Assembly: GCA_006383075.2 (NCBI GenBank) | Contig: SMNH02000002.1 | Span: forward strand, 59,020-123,019 | Reading direction: 5' to 3' | Length of the DNA: 64,000 nt | Source of the DNA: Kordia sp. TARA_039_SRF | Lineage (GTDB): Bacteria > Bacteroidota > Bacteroidia > Flavobacteriales > Flavobacteriaceae | Part shown: positions 32,450 to 39,967 of the stretch, in pieces | Numbering within the stretch: position 1 is the stretch's first letter | How the letters are laid out: each line of letters begins with the position of its first letter | Translations under genes and position numbers: made by a program | Notes under the pieces: generated by a model | The model's input: only the letters and a program-made list of their open reading frames with translations | What the model was told of the DNA's origin: nothing | The model's database searches: none

Positions 32450-33213
32450 GTCATTGCGAAGAATAAAGGGAAGAAGCAATATGTTGCTTCAAATAACGAA
32501 AATATACTATGACAAATAGGTTGCCGCGCGTTTTGCAAACGCTAGCAAAGACGGTTCTTAGAAATAGAAAAGAATACAAGACGTCTTTGCGAGGACGAAG
32601 AACGAAGCAATCCGTGACTTCAAATAACGAAAATATACTATGACAAACAGATTGCCGCGCGTTCTACAAACGCTCGCAAAGACGGTTCTTAGAAATAGAA
32701 AAGAATACAAGACGTCTTTGCAAGGACGAAGGACGAAGCAATCTGTTGCTTCAAATAACGAAAATGTACTATGACACACAGATTGCCACGCGTTCTACAA
32801 ACGCTCGCAAAGACGGTTCTTAGAAACAGAAAAGAATACAAGACGTCTTTGCAAGGACGAAGGACGAATCAATCCCTGACTTTAAATAACGAAAATGTAC
32901 TGTAACAAACAGATTGCCGCGCGTTTTGCAAACGCTCGCAAAGACGGTTCTTAGAAACAGAAAAGAATACAAGACGTCTTTGCAAGGACGAAGGACGAAG
33001 CAATCTGTTGCTCCAAATAACGAAAATGTACTGTAACAAACAGATTGCCGCGCGTTTTGCAAACGGTCGCAAAGACGGTTCTTAGAAATAGAAAAGACGA
33101 CAAGACGTCTTTGCGAGGACGAAGGACGAAGCAATCCCTGACTTCAAATAACGAAAATATACTATGACAAACAGGTTGCCGCGCGTTCTACAAACGCTCG
33201 CAAAGACGTTTCT
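32450..33213. repeat. 131-bp tandem repeat array, six units
   Basis: Units begin with ACGTCTTTGC at 32581, 32712, 32843, 32974 and 33105; a diverged unit at 32450 precedes them and the last unit is partial. Period is exactly 131 bp between the five starts. Each unit contains GTCTTTGCGAGG...GAAGCAATC and, about 60 bp on, GATTGCCGCGCG...CTCGCAAAGAC, so it is a large imperfect inverted repeat related to the REP-like half-site in hsdR. The open frames across it are by-products of the repeat. Confidence 0.93.
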
Positions 33214-33350
33214 TAGATTTTTTAGTTTTTATCGACTCCTTTCTACATCAAAACCTTTTTATGCTACTACACATACCAAAAAAACAAAGCCTCAGCTGCT
33301 TAGCATCAAAACCAAAGGAGGTTTTGTACAAAAGTACCGCAGGAAAACAC

Positions 33351-33392
33351 AAAAAGCAGCGGAGGTTTTGGGGAAAACCTCCGCTGCTTTTT
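33351..33392. terminator. Perfect 19-bp bidirectional terminator hairpin
   Basis: The stem AAAAAGCAGCGGAGGTTTT pairs perfectly with AAAACCTCCGCTGCTTTTT across a GGGG loop. The A and T tracts are part of the stem, so it works in both directions. It stands between the repeat array and the HU-like gene. Confidence 0.92.
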
Positions 33393-33401
33393 GTAAAAAA
33401 T

Positions 33402-33433
33402 AACCGAGAAATTTAAAAAACTTCTCGGTTTTT
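33402..33433 (-). terminator. Terminator of the HU-like gene
   Basis: The stem AACCGAGAA/TTCTCGGTT has a loop of about 11 nt and lies 37 bp downstream of the minus-strand gene ending at 33470. Confidence 0.8.
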
Positions 33434-34245: not shown

Positions 34246-34404
34246 ATGAAAAAAAGAAACACATACAAATTGAGCTTAAACAAAAAAGCAATTTCCTCTT
34301 TAGAATATTCAAAAATTACGGGAGGAGAAACGCAACGAACAGACTGTACCATGTGCTGCTGGATTGACAAAACGTTTCCTTGCGATTCGTATATGAGTTG
34401 CTAG
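34246..34404 (+). CDS. RiPP precursor peptide, GG leader (precursor F)
   Basis: This 52-residue peptide starts at the ATG at 34246. The leader MKKRNTYKLSLNKKAISSL is followed by KITGG and a 25-residue core with five Cys (in DCTMCCWIDK, FPCDS and the C-terminal SC), several Thr and Ser, and a Trp. It heads a plus-strand group of three precursors (F, G, H) separated by 29 and 46 bp, probably one transcript that ends at the 34996 terminator. Confidence 0.78.
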   Translation: MKKRNTYKLSLNKKAISSLEYSKITGGETQRTDCTMCCWIDKTFPCDSYMSC

Positions 34405-34433
34405 AAATATTTATAAAACTTAATACGTATATC

Positions 34434-34679
34434 ATGAAAAAAAAGAATCTTAAAAGCTTACGCTTACAAAAATCGAAAGTTTCTCGTTTAAATCAACATT
34501 CGGTTTCAGGTGGTGATATTATCATTATTGCAACATTGCGTCGTCCATGTCCGGTACCTGTACCTCAGCAAACGGTTACTACATGTTCAGGAGCCGCAGA
34601 ATGTGACTCTAGACAAATTTGCACAGCGAATATTTGTAAAACCAATGAACTAGACACCAATACACGTCCAATTTGCTAA
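34434..34679 (+). CDS. RiPP precursor peptide, GG leader (precursor G)
   Basis: This 81-residue peptide starts at the ATG at 34434; the upstream in-frame extension runs back into precursor F and is not family-like. The leader MKKKNLKSLRLQKSKVSRL ends SVSGG. The core has a Pro-rich stretch, RRPCPVPVPQQTVTTC, then further Cys, and ends CKTNELDTNTRPIC. That ending is nearly the same in precursor H, so the two are paralogues whose central core has diverged. Confidence 0.78.
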   Translation: MKKKNLKSLRLQKSKVSRLNQHSVSGGDIIIIATLRRPCPVPVPQQTVTTCSGAAECDSRQICTANICKTNELDTNTRPIC

Positions 34680-34725
34680 TCTTTTATACCTAGAAAAATT
34701 ATCAAACCATTTTAAATATACTATC

Positions 34726-34971
34726 ATGAAAAAAAAGAATTTTAAAAATTTAAGCGTAAAGAAATCTACCATTTCTAATTTGAATAAAGATTTCGCAAAA
34801 GGTGGAGCTGCTGTTCCTAAAACAGATTATCGTGTTTGTGGAACTGGTCCTGCAACAATTTACACTTGTCAAACAGTATATTGTTCTGTATTTGTACAAT
34901 GTGATACCTACAACTCTATGAATCGTTGTAAAACGATTGAAGTAGACGCGAATACAGTTCCTATTTGTTAA
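34726..34971 (+). CDS. RiPP precursor peptide, GG leader (precursor H)
   Basis: This 81-residue peptide has leader MKKKNFKNLSVKKSTISNL and an FAKGG site near residue 27. The core carries Cys in YRVCGTG, YTCQTVYCSVFVQC and RCKT, and ends in the conserved CKTIEVDANTVPIC. It is the same length as precursor G and shares its C-terminal Cys-x-x-x-x-Asp pattern. A strong terminator follows 24 bp after the stop codon. Confidence 0.78.
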   Translation: MKKKNFKNLSVKKSTISNLNKDFAKGGAAVPKTDYRVCGTGPATIYTCQTVYCSVFVQCDTYNSMNRCKTIEVDANTVPIC

Positions 34972-35203: not shown

Positions 35204-35929
35204 GTGATTGCCGAAGCGATTTATTTTAAGATTTCGAAAGGAAAACTGGTTGCGTTGGTTGGTGCTAATGGTATCGGAAAATCTACGCTGTTGCGCACGT
35301 TGGCGAAGATTCAAGCGCCACTTTCAGGCGAAATTGTGTTGCAAAACAAGTCGCTTCACGCCTATTCTAATGCGGAATTGGCAAAAGAGATTAGTTTGGT
35401 GTTAACGGAACAGATTCCTTCTAAAAATTTAACTGTCGTTGAATTGATTGCCTTAGGTCGTCAACCGTATACCAATTGGATTGGAAATCTTTCTAAAAAC
35501 GATTACACAATTATCGAAAATGCTTTGCAAAAAACCAATTTGCTCGATTTGAAGCATCGCAAGTGCTATACCCTTAGTGACGGACAGTTGCAAAAAGTAA
35601 TGATTGCACGTGCTTTGGCGCAAGATACTTCCATGATTATTTTGGATGAACCTACGACACATTTAGACATGTATCACAAAGCGTATGTGTTGAATTTACT
35701 CAAAAATTTGGCTCACGATACGCAAAAAACGATGGTTTTCTCAACGCATGAAATTGATTTGGCAATTCAGTTGTGCGATGAAATGATTGTGATGAACAAC
35801 GGCAATGTATTTTCAGGAACACCTTGCGAACTTATTGAACAAGGCGTTTTTGAACAATTATTCCCGAATGATTTGATTGCTTTTGATGCAAGTTCGGGTA
35901 GTTTTAAAGTCAAAAATACGATGTCATAA
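35204..35929 (+). CDS. FecE/BtuD-like ABC transporter ATP-binding protein
   Basis: This 241-residue ATPase of the iron-siderophore/B12 importer type has Walker A GANGIGKST, the signature LSDGQLQKV, Walker B MIILDEPTTHLD and a switch His in FSTHEIDLA. The called start is a GTG, but family-like sequence continues upstream in the same frame (LEVSSLCIGYQEKANQK from about 35153) with no ATG before the TAG at 35081. The true start is therefore a rare codon such as ATT (35126 or 35150), or the original start was lost. No permease or binding protein is adjacent, which is unusual for this family. Confidence 0.85.
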   Translation: MIAEAIYFKISKGKLVALVGANGIGKSTLLRTLAKIQAPLSGEIVLQNKSLHAYSNAELAKEISLVLTEQIPSKNLTVVELIALGRQPYTNWIGNLSKNDYTIIENALQKTNLLDLKHRKCYTLSDGQLQKVMIARALAQDTSMIILDEPTTHLDMYHKAYVLNLLKNLAHDTQKTMVFSTHEIDLAIQLCDEMIVMNNGNVFSGTPCELIEQGVFEQLFPNDLIAFDASSGSFKVKNTMS

Positions 35930-36050
35930 AAAAAACGCCCTATCCAAACGGATAAAGCGTTTTTTATAAAAACTAACCAACCAAAAAAATGTAGTACGAC
36001 TCTCTTTACGCAAGTAACCAACTCTTTGTACTGTCATCATCGTAATACAC
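35928..36050 (-). ncRNA. Structured small RNA, copy 1, sigma-54-type promoter
   Basis: The minus-strand transcript would run from about 36050 to a terminator (stem 35934-35945 / 35950-35961) followed by U. Shared with the copies at 36142 and 39820 are GATGAC, GAGYTGGTTACT, AGAGAGTC (partly) and TTTTGGTTGGTTAGTT before the terminator. A closing stem, TGTATTAC/GTACTACA, differs in sequence from the other two copies yet still pairs, apart from one mismatch. The hairpin also serves as the terminator of the ABC ATPase gene. Confidence 0.7.
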
Positions 36051-36060
36051 ACTATATAAG

Positions 36061-36076
36061 ACAATATCTGTGCCAA
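36061..36076 (-). promoter_or_regulatory. Sigma-54-type -24/-12 promoter of small RNA copy 1
   Basis: On the minus strand it reads TTGGCAC-AGATA-TTGT, matching TTGGCAc-N5-TTGc with exact spacing. Confidence 0.6.
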
Positions 36077-36141
36077 AACGTTACACTAGTTCTTAAAAAG
36101 TGATGTAATTCTGTTAAACAATGTGAAAATTGATGGCATAA

Positions 36142-36255
36142 AAAATGCCCCGCAAGTGCGAGGCATTCTTTTAACTAAACTAACCAACCAAAATTGTACT
36201 AAGACTCTCTGTACGCAAGTAACCAGCTCTTTGTAAGGTCATCATCAGAGTACAA
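36142..36255 (-). ncRNA. Structured small RNA, copy 2, sigma-54-type promoter
   Basis: The minus-strand transcript runs from about 36255 to the terminator AATGCCCCGC-AAGT-GCGAGGCATT (36144-36167). It has the best closing stem of the three copies, TTGTACT/AGTACAA, seven perfect pairs around the conserved GATGATGAC, GAGCTGGTTACT and AGAGAGTC block. The conserved TTTTGGTTGGTTAG follows the stem. It lies about 230 bp from copy 1 in the same orientation and upstream of the minus-strand precursors' opposite flank. Confidence 0.7.
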
Positions 36256-36265
36256 TAATTATAAA

Positions 36266-36281
36266 CCAACTTTTATGCCAA
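36266..36281 (-). promoter_or_regulatory. Sigma-54-type -24/-12 promoter of small RNA copy 2
   Basis: On the minus strand it reads TTGGCAT-AAAAG-TTGG, with the same spacing as copies 1 and 3. Confidence 0.55.
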
Positions 36282-36361
36282 ATATTGTTTAGAAAGCTGA
36301 ATTCTAACTAATTTTTAAGAAATAAATTGTTTTTGATTGGTAAAGTATAAAATAGTATGTT

Positions 36362-36559
36362 TTAGCTTGGTTCTGCTGGACATTCATCACCAACTGTAAG
36401 ACAATCTCCATTACACGAAACATTGTTTGTGTTTACAGTAGTTGTTGTTGGACAATAAACAATGCATGTTAAAATTGACCTAGCATCACTCGATCCACCT
36501 TTTATGGTAGAAATCACTTTTTTATTTAACTGTAATGTAGTCAGGTTCTTTTTTTTCAT
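36362..36559 (-). CDS. RiPP precursor peptide, GG leader (precursor I)
   Basis: This 65-residue peptide has leader MKKKNLTTLQLNKKVISTI ending directly in KGG at residues 20-22 or so, shorter than its relatives. The core contains a run of Thr (CPTTTTVNTNNVSC), five Cys in all, and ends ECPAEPS. The Thr/Ser and Cys mix is suitable for thioether bridging, though no modifying enzyme is in the window. It is the third of three minus-strand precursors (K, J, I in transcription order). Confidence 0.78.
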   Translation of the reverse strand: MKKKNLTTLQLNKKVISTIKGGSSDARSILTCIVYCPTTTTVNTNNVSCNGDCLTVGDECPAEPS

Positions 36560-36598
36560 AATTTTAATTGTTTTAGTTAAAATCTACTAATGTGCAAT

Positions 36599-36766
36599 CT
36601 AGCAGCCTTCAATAGTGGCTGGAACACATTTCGTAGAAGGCGGACACGTATCTGTATAGCATTCTGCATTTAACCACGTGATTCTTCCTCCTTTCAATTC
36701 ATGTACTTGCAAATTGGAAATTGACTTTTTGTTAAGTTTGAGCGATTTAATTTGTTGTTTTTTCAT
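36599..36766 (-). CDS. RiPP precursor peptide, GG leader (precursor J)
   Basis: This 55-residue peptide starts at the ATG at 36766 and stops at 36599. The leader MKKQQIKSLKLNKKSISNL is followed by the ELKGG site and a 28-residue core with four Cys (in NAECYTDTCPPSTKC and the C-terminal EGC), plus Thr and Ser. It lies between precursors I and K in the same orientation, 39 and 26 bp from each neighbour, so the three are probably one transcript. It is too short for many gene callers. Confidence 0.78.
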   Translation of the reverse strand: MKKQQIKSLKLNKKSISNLQVHELKGGRITWLNAECYTDTCPPSTKCVPATIEGC

Positions 36767-36792
36767 TTGTTTAGAATTTTAAGATTAAAGAA

Positions 36793-37002
36793 TTAATTTT
36801 TTGTGGGGAGTGTTTGATGCGTGTCATCATCTAGTGGCGTAGTATCTTCTCCAGAAGCTGGCGTATCTGCCGGAGCTCCCGCACAATCCGCATCAGGATC
36901 TAAAGTTGGGTCGGTAATGTCTCTAGTTCCACCTTTTAAGGATTCATCATTTGTAATGATACGCTTGTTGAGTTTTAACGATTTTAGATTTCGTTTTTTC
37001 AT
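36793..37002 (-). CDS. RiPP precursor peptide, GG leader (precursor K)
   Basis: This 69-residue peptide starts at the ATG at 37002; the longer in-frame extension to 37053 runs through the promoter box and is not leader-like. The leader MKKRNLKSLKLNKRIITND has the SLKGG site. The core is unusual: Asp-, Thr- and Pro-rich (TDPTLDPDADCAGAPADTPA) with only one Cys. If it is modified, its chemistry must differ from that of its Cys-rich neighbours. A -7 box, TACATTTG on the minus strand, lies at 37029-37036. Confidence 0.75.
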   Translation of the reverse strand: MKKRNLKSLKLNKRIITNDESLKGGTRDITDPTLDPDADCAGAPADTPASGEDTTPLDDDTHQTLPTKN

Positions 37003-37028
37003 AATTGTAAAAGTTTTAGTTAACGATT

Positions 37029-37036
37029 CAAATGTA
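37029..37036 (-). promoter_or_regulatory. -7 box of the K-J-I precursor transcript
   Basis: The minus strand reads TACATTTG, an exact TAnnTTTG match, 26 bp before the ATG at 37002. Confidence 0.55.
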
Positions 37037-37042
37037 GATTTC

Positions 37043-37075
37043 TGAAAAAACAAAAAGCCCTATTTACAAGGCTTT
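37043..37075 (-). terminator. Terminator of the LytTR regulator gene
   Basis: On the minus strand, AAAGCC and GGCTTT pair around a loop of about 10 nt, followed by a T-rich run. Confidence 0.75.
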
Positions 37076-37097
37076 GTGACCGTTTACCATCAAAATA

Positions 37098-37126
37098 GTG
37101 ACGAATAAAAAGTGAGATGTGACGAA
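37098..37126. promoter_or_regulatory. Direct repeat GTGACGAA with 21-bp period
   Basis: GTGACGAA occurs at 37098-37105 and again at 37119-37126, exactly 21 bp apart. The ACGAA core and spacing resemble the repeats upstream of 44943 and 48260. It lies between the LytTR gene and precursor K, but its distance to the -7 box differs from those two, so it is a weaker candidate. Confidence 0.4.
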
Positions 37127-37157
37127 ACAATGTATTTTTGGGATGGTTTTTTTGAGA

Positions 37158-39746
37158 TTAAAAGATTAGTTTCTGCAATTCATCCACATACGAATTACTT
37201 ACAGGAATTTTTTCTCCCTTTACGGTGACTTCTTTATTGTTCTTTTCTTCCACTTTATCAATCCGAACGATATATGAACGATGAATTCGAATGTATTCTA
37301 GCGGATCGGGCATTAAATTGATAAACTCACCAATTTTAGTGCGAATGGTGTAATTTTTTTGCTCCGTTACAACTTCCACATAATTCCCTGCTGATTTTAC
37401 ATATAAAATCGTATCTGTTTTAATGCGGATTTCTTTTCCTGCTTCTTTAAACGAGAAATAACGTTCTTTGCGCTTTATTTTTTTCATCAGTAAACGCAGC
37501 AATTCGCCAATAATATGTTGGTTGTACGATAAAATTCGATATTTAAAGAATAGATAAATCAAGGTGATTACTGCTACAATTAGAGATATTACAAACCACG
37601 TTTGTTTCCAAAATGGCGCATGAATGTGTACTGGGATTTCTATAAAATTAAGCGTTTCTTCGTTTGAAGTGGTTGCAGCTACTTTAAACGTATAACTTCC
37701 GTACGGCAACGCTGAATACGAGATTTTTCTGTTTTTTGTGGTGTATAGTTTGGTGTCCAATCCTTCCATTTGATAGCTGTACACGATGTCTTTTGTATTT
37801 TTAAAAGAAATTGCTTCTACCCTAAAGTCTATTCTATTTTCTTTATGCGATAGTTTTGTGAGTTTATCAAACTTGTATAAAGAATCGTTTACATAACTCG
37901 CTTTGATTTTTAAGAAATTATCTGGGAAAATTTTAGATGTTTCAAAAATGCGTTTCGGTACGTAGGTAAGTCCTTTTATAGAAGCAATCCAAACTGTGTC
38001 GTTGATGATTTCTATGTCGTTAATACCGTCGTTTAATAAACCTTTTGAGCTTTTGAGTCCCGAAATATGAAAATTCCCTGCTGCGTTGAATGTTATTTTA
38101 TCCACACCATGATTGGTACAAACCCAAAGTTCATTATTATTGGTAATTTTCAATTCATTGATAATATTACTCGATAACCCTTGCGAAGTATCAATAGTTT
38201 TGACTTTTCCTGTGGTTGGATTGTAAATAATGATGCCTTTTCCCAAGGTGGCAAAATAGATTTCATTACGAACCTTATTGATATCAATGTCTTCTATTCT
38301 ATGTTTAAAGATAGGATGATGCGTAGACAATGCCGTTGTTTGCTCATTTTTCATTGTAAATGCTCCTAATGGCGTTCCTATATAATAAGTGTCGTTTAAA
38401 AAAGCAACATCGTGAATTCGCTGTGACAACACTGTTTTTTTAATACCAACAGAATCCACCACCACAAAACCTGATTGATTGGAAATTATAATTTTATGAT
38501 CTGTAGGTTCAGAAAATTTTATAAAAAAACTTCCTGATATTGAATCTGAAAAGTATGTTTTTTGATGATTTCTGTTTTTTTTGTAAAACCGCTCATCCGA
38601 CTTCACATATAACAATTCAGATACCGAATCATACGCCACCAACGCTTCTTGTTCTACTTCTGAACTCGCTTCACGAAACAGTTTTCGATTTTGATCTAAC
38701 TTGAGAACGTCTCCCGTACGATAGCTGATGTATAATTCGTCTTTGTTGGTTTTTGCCAAGTTCATTACGGGACTTTTCAATCCAGTGTCAAACACTTTTA
38801 TATTGGGTTCTTTTACATAAAAAACGCCCGAATGCAAGGTAGAAAACCAATAACCACCCTCGTGATCTATTAAGAAATCAGTAACGGATTCGTTGGGTAA
38901 AAAATGAGCCTTGATGTTTCCTTCAATATCCATAATAACACCTCCGCCAAATTCAAAGCCCACAAAAAAAGTAGTCGGACTTAGCGCTTTTAATACAATA
39001 GGAATTGTTGCAGTTTCTATACTATTGATGTGCTTTCCGTTTGTATCTAAAACAGTCAAAGTATTGCTATCAAAAAACACAATATAATTTGCTTCATCTA
39101 AAAATATCACTTCTTTATCAAGTGTATAATTAACTTTAGAAACTATGGTGTTTTTGCTGTTTGGCAAAGAATCTTTTTCAAATGAAAAGAAGAGAATTTC
39201 ATCATTTTTTTTCTCCAATTTCATCCACTTATCTTGTTCTGAAGTTACCCTTTCTTTGCTTGGGCTTTTTAAAATGTTTCCATCTTTTGAAATAATGAGT
39301 TTTCCAAACATATATTCGCAAGCAATGTGCATATTCCCTTCGGCATCTACATACAAACTCATAATATGCTGTTTAAATTCTAATTTTTCTCGAAGAATAT
39401 TGTTGTATTTATACGCTACAAAGCCTTTAAATACTTCATCAAAATAAAATAACTGATTGTTAAACGTAGCTGCATAAATGGTTCCATTAGACTGCGGAAA
39501 AAGGTCTAACACAACAGCATTGGAAATGCTATTTTCAAAATGGAAACGTTTCATTTCGTATCCGTTGGTATGTACCAAACCTCTATCGGTGGCAAACCAT
39601 ATCAGTCCACTTTTATCTTGGTACATTCCGTGAACTTCCAAACTTGGCAAACCTTCGTTAATTCCGAATTCTTCGTAAATATATTGTTGAGAAAATAAAA
39701 AACTATAAAAGCCTAGAAAGAAGCACAAAGCTAGTTTGGTTTTCAT
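37158..39746 (-). CDS. Membrane-anchored one-component regulator: beta-propeller sensor with LytTR output
   Basis: This 862-residue protein has a signal peptide (about 1-19), then regulator-propeller repeats such as GLPSLEVHGMYQDKSGLIWF, a Y_Y_Y-type domain at about 630-700, one transmembrane helix at about 715-738, and a C-terminal LytTR DNA-binding domain at about 765-860 (ILYVKSAGNYVEVVTEQ and EYIRIHRSYIVRID). There is no histidine kinase, so sensing outside and DNA binding inside are in one chain. Bacteroidota use such proteins to respond to periplasmic ligands. It is flanked by precursor genes and small RNA copy 3; its targets may be the 21-bp-period direct repeats noted here, which is inference. 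Confidence 0.93.
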   Translation of the reverse strand: MKTKLALCFFLGFYSFLFSQQYIYEEFGINEGLPSLEVHGMYQDKSGLIWFATDRGLVHTNGYEMKRFHFENSISNAVVLDLFPQSNGTIYAATFNNQLFYFDEVFKGFVAYKYNNILREKLEFKQHIMSLYVDAEGNMHIACEYMFGKLIISKDGNILKSPSKERVTSEQDKWMKLEKKNDEILFFSFEKDSLPNSKNTIVSKVNYTLDKEVIFLDEANYIVFFDSNTLTVLDTNGKHINSIETATIPIVLKALSPTTFFVGFEFGGGVIMDIEGNIKAHFLPNESVTDFLIDHEGGYWFSTLHSGVFYVKEPNIKVFDTGLKSPVMNLAKTNKDELYISYRTGDVLKLDQNRKLFREASSEVEQEALVAYDSVSELLYVKSDERFYKKNRNHQKTYFSDSISGSFFIKFSEPTDHKIIISNQSGFVVVDSVGIKKTVLSQRIHDVAFLNDTYYIGTPLGAFTMKNEQTTALSTHHPIFKHRIEDIDINKVRNEIYFATLGKGIIIYNPTTGKVKTIDTSQGLSSNIINELKITNNNELWVCTNHGVDKITFNAAGNFHISGLKSSKGLLNDGINDIEIINDTVWIASIKGLTYVPKRIFETSKIFPDNFLKIKASYVNDSLYKFDKLTKLSHKENRIDFRVEAISFKNTKDIVYSYQMEGLDTKLYTTKNRKISYSALPYGSYTFKVAATTSNEETLNFIEIPVHIHAPFWKQTWFVISLIVAVITLIYLFFKYRILSYNQHIIGELLRLLMKKIKRKERYFSFKEAGKEIRIKTDTILYVKSAGNYVEVVTEQKNYTIRTKIGEFINLMPDPLEYIRIHRSYIVRIDKVEEKNNKEVTVKGEKIPVSNSYVDELQKLIF

Positions 39747-39819
39747 AAATGGTAATCGGTTTTAGTTTAGAAGTAAGGCTAATATATTAAAAACTTCGCA
39801 AGATGTTGTGCTTCCAAAA

Positions 39820-39941
39820 AAGAAGAAACACTCCACAAGCGTGAAGTGTTTCTATAAACTAACTAACCAACCAAAATTGTAATCACGACTCTTGTATGTA
39901 GAGTAACCAGCTCGTTTAATACCGTCATTGCCGTGTTACAT
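39820..39941 (-). ncRNA. Structured small RNA, copy 3, sigma-54-type promoter
   Basis: The minus-strand transcript runs from about 39941 to a terminator with stem AGAAACACTcCAC/GTGaAGTGTTTCT (39824-39853). It shares GAGCTGGTTACT, AAGAGTCGT and the TTTTGGTTGGTTAGTT lead into the terminator. Its closing stem, TGTAA-CAC / GTG-(A)-TTACA, has a sequence of its own, which gives compensatory change relative to copies 1 and 2. It lies 74 bp upstream of the LytTR regulator gene. Confidence 0.7.
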
Positions 39942-39951
39942 TCTATATAAA

Positions 39952-39967
39952 CCAAGTATTGTGCCAA
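39952..39967 (-). promoter_or_regulatory. Sigma-54-type -24/-12 promoter of small RNA copy 3
   Basis: On the minus strand it reads TTGGCAC-AATAC-TTGG, with spacing identical to the other two copies. Confidence 0.6.

Follow-up and report, generated by a model that had tools for sequence, protein, structure and literature searches.

We analysed a 64-kb stretch of DNA (the window) from contig 2 of a 4.59-Mb Flavobacteriaceae genome of the genus Kordia, and found on its minus strand three related elements, at 39967-39824, 36281-36140, and 36076-35930. Each has the same order of parts: a box of the form TTGGCAYN5TTGK, about 10 nucleotides (nt), a closing stem, a small hairpin, a linker (TTTTGGTTGGTTAGTT), and a terminator. 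From sequence comparison, we consider it very probable that they belong to a real and widespread family of small RNA (sRNA) genes with sigma-54-type promoters. Our best explanation as a whole, to which we assign a probability of roughly 0.6, is that the three elements are paralogues in a trans-acting sRNA family of Flavobacteriaceae, driven by sigma-54 and acting through a tag also found in messenger RNAs (mRNAs), which would serve as a noncoding arm of an envelope or protein-quality response. Judged by conservation, constraint is strongest in the linker that precedes the terminator, a part not singled out in the original prediction for this DNA. The parts of the three copies lie at the following positions of the window:

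39952-39967, minus strand: box of copy 1, sigma-54-type (-24/-12), TTGGCACAATACTTGG (pattern scan)
39824-39941, minus strand: predicted sRNA of copy 1, start near 39941, terminator hairpin at 39853-39824 (folding, covariance model)
39861-39876, minus strand (C2:98880-98895 of the genome): conserved linker of copy 1, TTTTGGTTGGTTAGTT (linker scan of the genome)
36266-36281, minus strand: box of copy 2, sigma-54-type, TTGGCATAAAAGTTGG (pattern scan)
36140-36255, minus strand: predicted sRNA of copy 2, start near 36255, terminator hairpin at 36171-36140 (folding, covariance model)
36178-36193, minus strand: conserved linker of copy 2 (linker scan of the genome)
36061-36076, minus strand: box of copy 3, sigma-54-type, TTGGCACAGATATTGT (pattern scan)
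35930-36050, minus strand: predicted sRNA of copy 3, start near 36050, terminator hairpin at 35965-35930 (folding, covariance model)
35971-35986, minus strand: conserved linker of copy 3 (linker scan of the genome)

The box pattern occurs at exactly three sites in the window, all at the elements (0.20 expected; three sites were reached in 0 of 100 shuffles of the window), which bears out the earlier description of three minus-strand elements with a shared box. A fourth copy of the family lies outside the window, at C2:644282-644383, and the four exact 16-nt linkers in the genome are every one inside sRNA copies. A two-mismatch linker at C6:71883 is a candidate for a fifth, more distant copy, judging by its likeness to four loci of other Kordia genomes (L502, L503, L505, and L506). 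We note that these four loci hold a further conserved sigma-54-type RNA, with the linker TTTTGGATTGGTTAGTT, and that the terminator hairpin loop of L502 and L506 itself holds UUGGUUA.

We searched Flavobacteriaceae, as the original prediction had called for, with a covariance model built from the four copies of this genome, promoter box included (R1). Within Kordia it gave 50 matches of at least 68 bits, in 11 of 11 genomes, plus six weak matches of 30-35 bits; at E up to 0.01, it matched 119 of 397 Flavobacteriaceae genomes, in 82 of 237 genera. An exact-pattern scan of a named genome collection, which was the search that covered spread beyond the family, gave at least 117 stretches; those listed are all titled Flavobacteriaceae or broader Bacteroidota. 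Genera among the matches listed include Winogradskyella, Algibacter, Lacinutrix, Olleya, Bizionia, Psychroserpens, Nonlabens, Mesonia, Salinimicrobium, and others, which we take to be Flavobacteriaceae, and the remaining stretches among the matches listed come from metagenome bins whose titles say Flavobacteriaceae or, more broadly, Bacteroidota. No record title among the matches listed (at least 117 stretches) names Flavobacterium. We also searched 121 genomes of a genus (g128) that we presume to be Flavobacterium, from 89% identity to a GldM chain of PDB 6YS8. At E up to 0.1, this search (R3) matched 96 genomes, with a best E of 7e-4; of 14 matches read, 12 are boxes before genes with signal-peptide-like starts, one falls within coding sequence, and only L361 is clearly a member of the family, a divergent one. 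From the loci we extracted 230 distinct copies, all of which have box and linker because the extraction pattern demands both. Rfam covariance models gave no match at the gathering score (the window, and 11 loci at E up to 5), and our searches of open-licence papers turned up no description of the family.

Folding predicts a terminator hairpin in all three window copies, as originally described; a simple terminator scan found a full-length hairpin at the 39.9-kb copy only. Applied to the family, the simple scan found a hairpin 3' of 211 of the 230 copies, and many of the 19 scan-negative copies have a bulged or long-loop hairpin by eye. The folding z-scores of copies 1, 2, and 3, terminator included, are -2.70, -1.96, and -3.26. 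Among 110 non-redundant copies, the mean for the bodies is -2.21 (58 below -2), and the unpaired fraction is 0.66 for the linker versus 0.39 for the body. The closing stems can pair by their letters, as had been pointed out, and comparison within Kordia supports them, but single-sequence folding places the stem in the minimum-energy fold of copy 3 only; it is partly in the centroid of copy 1, and copy 2 adopts another fold. The closing stem therefore rests on comparison, because copies 1 and 2 alone prefer other folds.

RNAalifold gave no pairs on a mixed set, in our view because of a slipping alignment, and so we counted pairs within two narrower sets: (i) all 36 Kordia copies (A8); and (ii) 41 of 55 group-B copies (A7), the 14 omitted being mostly of a differently shaped body. 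A third set (A9, 47 of 49 rows) was aligned only. In the Kordia set, 84.8% of cells pair, and 42 cells are changed on both sides versus 13.5 (standard deviation 2.9) in shuffles and 1-18 in slid controls; the corresponding group-B counts are 65 versus 25.5 (standard deviation 5.0) and 10-24. Both counts lie above all 500 shuffles, in a test that kinship among copies can inflate. Peptide coding was rejected as an explanation: a closed ATG open reading frame (ORF) of at least 15 amino acids occurs in 16 of 110 transcripts, versus 24% of shuffles, in line with the initial argument for conservation of RNA rather than peptide. The idea of a two-tier G-quadruplex was weighed on paper alone and set aside. 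Box, stems, and terminator are all retained in homologues, which strongly supports a family of structured, terminator-ended RNAs with a sigma-54-type promoter. They also show both the covariation and the -24/-12 boxes on whose presence the original prediction was, on its sequence half, to stand or fall.

Promoter box and sigma-54 machinery

The box is of the sigma-54 -24/-12 type, with TTTGGCAYR-N4-TTG kept. At positions that the pattern does not force, the 110 non-redundant copies have T before TTGGCA in 99% and a purine after CAY in 100%. A second model (R2), meant to lessen circularity, was built from promoter-free transcripts (48 of 52 rows). Its survey of 97 chosen sources omitted short-bodied loci, which are poorly covered, and Kordia loci except the window and L026, and a box was counted where TGGCAYN5TTG stood from 60 nt upstream of a match to 25 nt inside it. 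By this measure, 103 of 106 distinct matches have a box, versus 66 of 5300 stretches drawn at random from those loci. Comparison of the R1 and R2 lists yielded 11 copies that only R2 found at E up to 1e-6, nine of them boxed: eight in genomes missed by R1, with a box in all (L301-L308), and three further tandem copies, of which the G355 copy has a box and the G078 and G291 copies have none.

The window had been noted to lack the activator that sigma-54 control would need. We do not regard this as an obstacle, because RpoN (rpoN) is encoded in the genome together with two clear activators of the enhancer-binding type (E 1.1e-71 and 1.1e-67). A further seven activator matches are weaker and probably represent other AAA proteins. 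That the sRNAs are transcribed, depend on sigma-54, and have targets is inferred.

In Flavobacterium psychrophilum, mapped transcription starts revealed a -24/-12 motif (SM4), and promoter mutagenesis confirmed its role at the remF operon; SM4 precedes GroESL, Lon, DnaK, GrpE, HtpG, ClpB, gliding genes, and a putative regulatory RNA, Rfp36, with its start at 840245 (PMC9723704). Rfp36 resembles the present family as a putative regulatory RNA behind a sigma-54-type promoter in Flavobacteriaceae (PMC9723704) and, compared by description only, may be its counterpart. Chaperones are enriched in the predicted sigma-54 regulons of Flavobacteriia in a later survey, in the available parts of which the word sRNA is absent (PMC12316311).

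A linker and terminator common to sRNAs and mRNA 3' ends

The most unexpected result, and by our comparison a new one, is that the sRNAs share their linker and terminator with the 3' untranslated regions (UTRs) of mRNAs. All twelve linker-only R2 matches that were read lie 3' of stop codons. We then took a census of the exact tag TTTTGGTTGGTTAG in 36 genomes, each chosen for an R1 or R2 match, and found it at 78 places in 35 of the 36, versus 18 for the reversed pattern. The 76 distinct contexts comprise 24 sRNA genes (by a relaxed box), 36 3' UTRs, five with a terminator-like hairpin only, and 11 with none of these, ten having been re-sorted by eye where the scan missed hairpins. The tag lies 0-16 nt after the stop codon in 33 of the 36 tagged ORFs, and a strict box stands near the start of 29 of the 36 tagged genes, versus 9 of 419 control ORFs. 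These 29 genes encode a secreted basic protein (22) or a lipoprotein (7); for the single member of each family that was scanned, Pfam gave no match. The seven boxless tagged genes include one for an EF-hand protein, one for a DUF6515 protein, and one whose product has a sub-threshold Metal_resist match. The breadth of tag sharing is for now limited to the protein families observed.

We also observed, across many genera, a secreted Arg/Ser-rich family (FSVFPDGQFDF-like motif) whose genes combine a sigma-54-type promoter with a tagged 3' UTR (L309-L320, L376-L432); the member scanned has no Pfam match. One of these loci, L311, carries on its minus strand, at about 65-150, a minimal unit of sigma-54-type box, about 10 nt, linker, and terminator, which would give an RNA of little beyond tag and terminator.

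Genomic neighbourhood

Two features of the window adjoin the sRNA genes:

37158-39746, minus strand: 862-amino-acid two-component-propeller / Y_Y_Y / LytTR protein (adjacency only)
36362-37002, minus strand: three short ORFs with GG-type leaders, like precursors of ribosomally synthesized and post-translationally modified peptides (RiPPs) by eye (ORF list)

Around the sRNA cluster and an ABC ATPase gene there are six short GG-leader ORFs in all, at 34246-34971 (plus strand) and 36362-37002 (minus strand). Five of the six were scanned and none reached the NCBIfam cut-off. The minus-strand ORFs at 36362-37002 matched no NCBIfam model at E up to 0.01, and one plus-strand ORF has a sub-threshold match to a class I lanthipeptide leader. 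We regard the RiPP label given to this locus as no more than tentative.

We counted neighbours at 88 family loci (genome G355 twice) and found relatives of a D-Ala-D-Ala dipeptidase at 69, of an AlkB-type oxygenase at 41, and of a Band 7 protein at 24; GG-leader ORFs are not among the common neighbours. Dipeptidase, oxygenase, and Band 7 genes flank the fourth copy. By these counts, the fourth copy holds the commonest neighbourhood of the family and the three window copies lie elsewhere, and the LytTR/RiPP setting in which they were originally described looks incidental. Elsewhere in the window, at 32451-33403, both strands hold almost identical ORF fragments (RLPRVLQTLAKTVLRNRKEYKTS-like, about 131 bp spacing), which suggests a tandem repeat; the adjacent genes resemble, by eye, a type I restriction system.

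Mode of action, alternatives, and related systems

Sequence comparison establishes the family, its structure, box, linker, and terminator, and the sharing with mRNAs; on this basis, we propose the following mechanism. Each sRNA gene would be free-standing, with a sigma-54-type -24/-12 promoter that needs an enhancer-binding activator. The body, typically about 65 nt, would be closed by a stem beginning near the predicted +1 and would guard the 5' end; about half of the bodies are predicted to carry a hairpin presenting UGGUU, in addition to the linker. The UUUUGGUUGGUUAG linker, mostly unpaired, would follow, and then the intrinsic terminator. This linker would be the working part, common to the 3' UTRs of exported-protein mRNAs with the same promoter type, and would be the place where a conserved RNA-binding protein docks. 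By analogy, the signal may be envelope or protein-folding stress, which would activate sigma-54 and so yield sRNAs that compete for, or work with, the docking protein.

We hold protein docking as the mode of action tentatively, and rank it somewhat likelier than a pairing seed. The tag leans towards protein binding because perfect antisense sites are not enriched, and its identity across sRNAs and mRNAs also counts towards a protein site. Two or more UGGUU stand before the terminator in 106 of 110 transcripts, although this counts for less than it might, as the linker provides two of them. It is more doubtful that UUUUGGUUGGUUAG and the terminator form a 3' tag of a sigma-54 regulon, read by an RNA-binding protein, with the sRNAs as sigma-54-induced decoys or partners on which the fate of tagged mRNAs depends.

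The sRNAs might instead act by base pairing, with the linker UUGGUUGGUUAG as a seed for CUAACCAACC-type sites near target start codons, in the manner of FopS, Qrr, and CpxQ. We regard this as a realistic, if less favoured, possibility: the linker, which adjoins the terminator, is largely single-stranded and almost invariant. In Kordia, seven of the 49 CTAACCAACCA sites listed apart from clear sRNA genes are close to the start of an ORF (the 49 contexts include at least one decayed sRNA copy, L480), and two of the seven (L496 and L498) precede homologous-looking 192-amino-acid ORFs in two genomes. However, in a test that covered exact 11-nt sites only, the 11-nt complement has 100 matches in 11 Kordia genomes, about half of them at the sRNA genes themselves, versus 92 for the reversed pattern, and a seed alone does not explain the identical letters in mRNA 3' UTRs. 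Another reading takes linker and terminator as purely a 3'-end element, setting the stability or processing of sigma-54 transcripts, with the sRNAs as by-products of tagged genes that have no role in trans. The short distance from stop codon to module (0-16 nt in 33 of 36 mRNAs), the sRNA genes that immediately precede tagged genes in some genera (L131, L139, and L142), and the minimal box-linker-terminator unit of L311 all fit it. We nevertheless judge it unlikely, since the covarying body and the recurrent neighbours of the stand-alone gene argue for selection on the sRNA itself, and the four exact 16-nt linkers of the window's genome are all in sRNAs.

The two remaining explanations concern the start of the transcript and its downstream gene. 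The boxes could belong to promoters for a different sigma factor and contain TTGGCA by chance, which would suit the lack of the usual -12 C; loose sigma-70 hexamers do fit copies 1 and 2, although such hits are no commoner there than in shuffles. The 110 copies have no further conserved block at a constant distance after TTG, the unforced positions (T 99%, purine 100%) match sigma-54, and 12 of the 14 matches read in genus g128 are boxes before signal-peptide-like gene starts, all of which make this explanation quite improbable. We give still less credence to the elements being cis-acting leaders or attenuators of downstream genes. The idea is suggested by copy 1, whose terminator ends about 80 nt before the start codon of the LytTR gene. 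However, what lies 3' of copy 2 is copy 3, and 3' of copy 3 a convergent ABC ATPase gene; transcription of the fourth copy would leave the Band 7 gene behind and run towards the oxygenase gene's end, and the predicted terminators are complete.

Returning to sigma-54-driven, tag-mediated sRNAs, several points weigh against our preferred explanation. With regard to the promoter, R1 holds the box, the extraction demands it, and R2 was trained on copies so found. The -12 element is TTGN rather than TTGC, with C as the next base in only 21% of the 110 copies. In tandem arrays of G078 and G291, the middle copies (L073 1318-1398 and L061 1317-1397), which are homologous to each other, have no box and yet keep body, linker, and terminator; they are probably decaying or transcribed by read-through. 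The box is decayed in L334, the third boxless match of the 106, and in the Kordia locus L480. As for structure, the number of pairs with two-sided change is hardly above shuffles (7 versus 5.1 in the Kordia set and 10 versus 8.9 in group B). With regard to the tag, the boxed mRNAs span only two protein families, the seven other tagged genes, from six families, are without a box, and the linker itself supplies two UGGUU, with a further one in only 55 of 110 bodies. The stress role, finally, is carried over from F. psychrophilum.

Several known sRNA systems are comparable. Qrr of Vibrio, in another phylum, likewise comprises several similar sRNAs per genome with sigma-54 promoters and terminator ends, but it depends on Hfq and LuxO, and its conserved part lies in the body rather than in a linker shared with mRNAs. 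CpxQ is an sRNA derived from a 3' UTR, so that a regulon mRNA and an sRNA share a 3' end, and an RpoN-dependent sRNA from the glnA 3' UTR reportedly follows the same plan (PMC9731577). Unlike these two, the family described here consists of widespread stand-alone genes with their own promoter, and its tag is common to unrelated mRNAs. By analogy, the nearest counterpart within the phylum is FopS/GibS with RbpB in Bacteroides thetaiotaomicron, also multicopy Bacteroidota sRNAs with a conserved single-stranded segment and an intrinsic terminator (PMC11697453). One FopS/GibS member arises from an mRNA 3' end, and the family has a link to bile-salt (membrane) stress and an RNA-binding-protein partner (PMC11697453). 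FopS genes have canonical sigma-ABfr promoters and a 5' seed (PMC11697453), in contrast to the TTGGCAY-type promoter, which does not fit sigma-ABfr, and the terminator-side linker found here. FopS is said to be deposited in Rfam (PMC11697453), and Rfam scans of the window and 11 loci gave no FopS match at threshold.

How Bacteroidota match sRNAs with their partners is little known. A 14-nt tag kept in the sRNAs of dozens of genera, and also at some mRNA 3' ends, suggests that RNA control has a common layer in these marine relatives of Flavobacterium, about whose use of regulatory RNA there is little knowledge, and could serve as bait for a missing RNA-binding protein. The flavobacterial sigma-54 response would thereby gain a testable noncoding arm.

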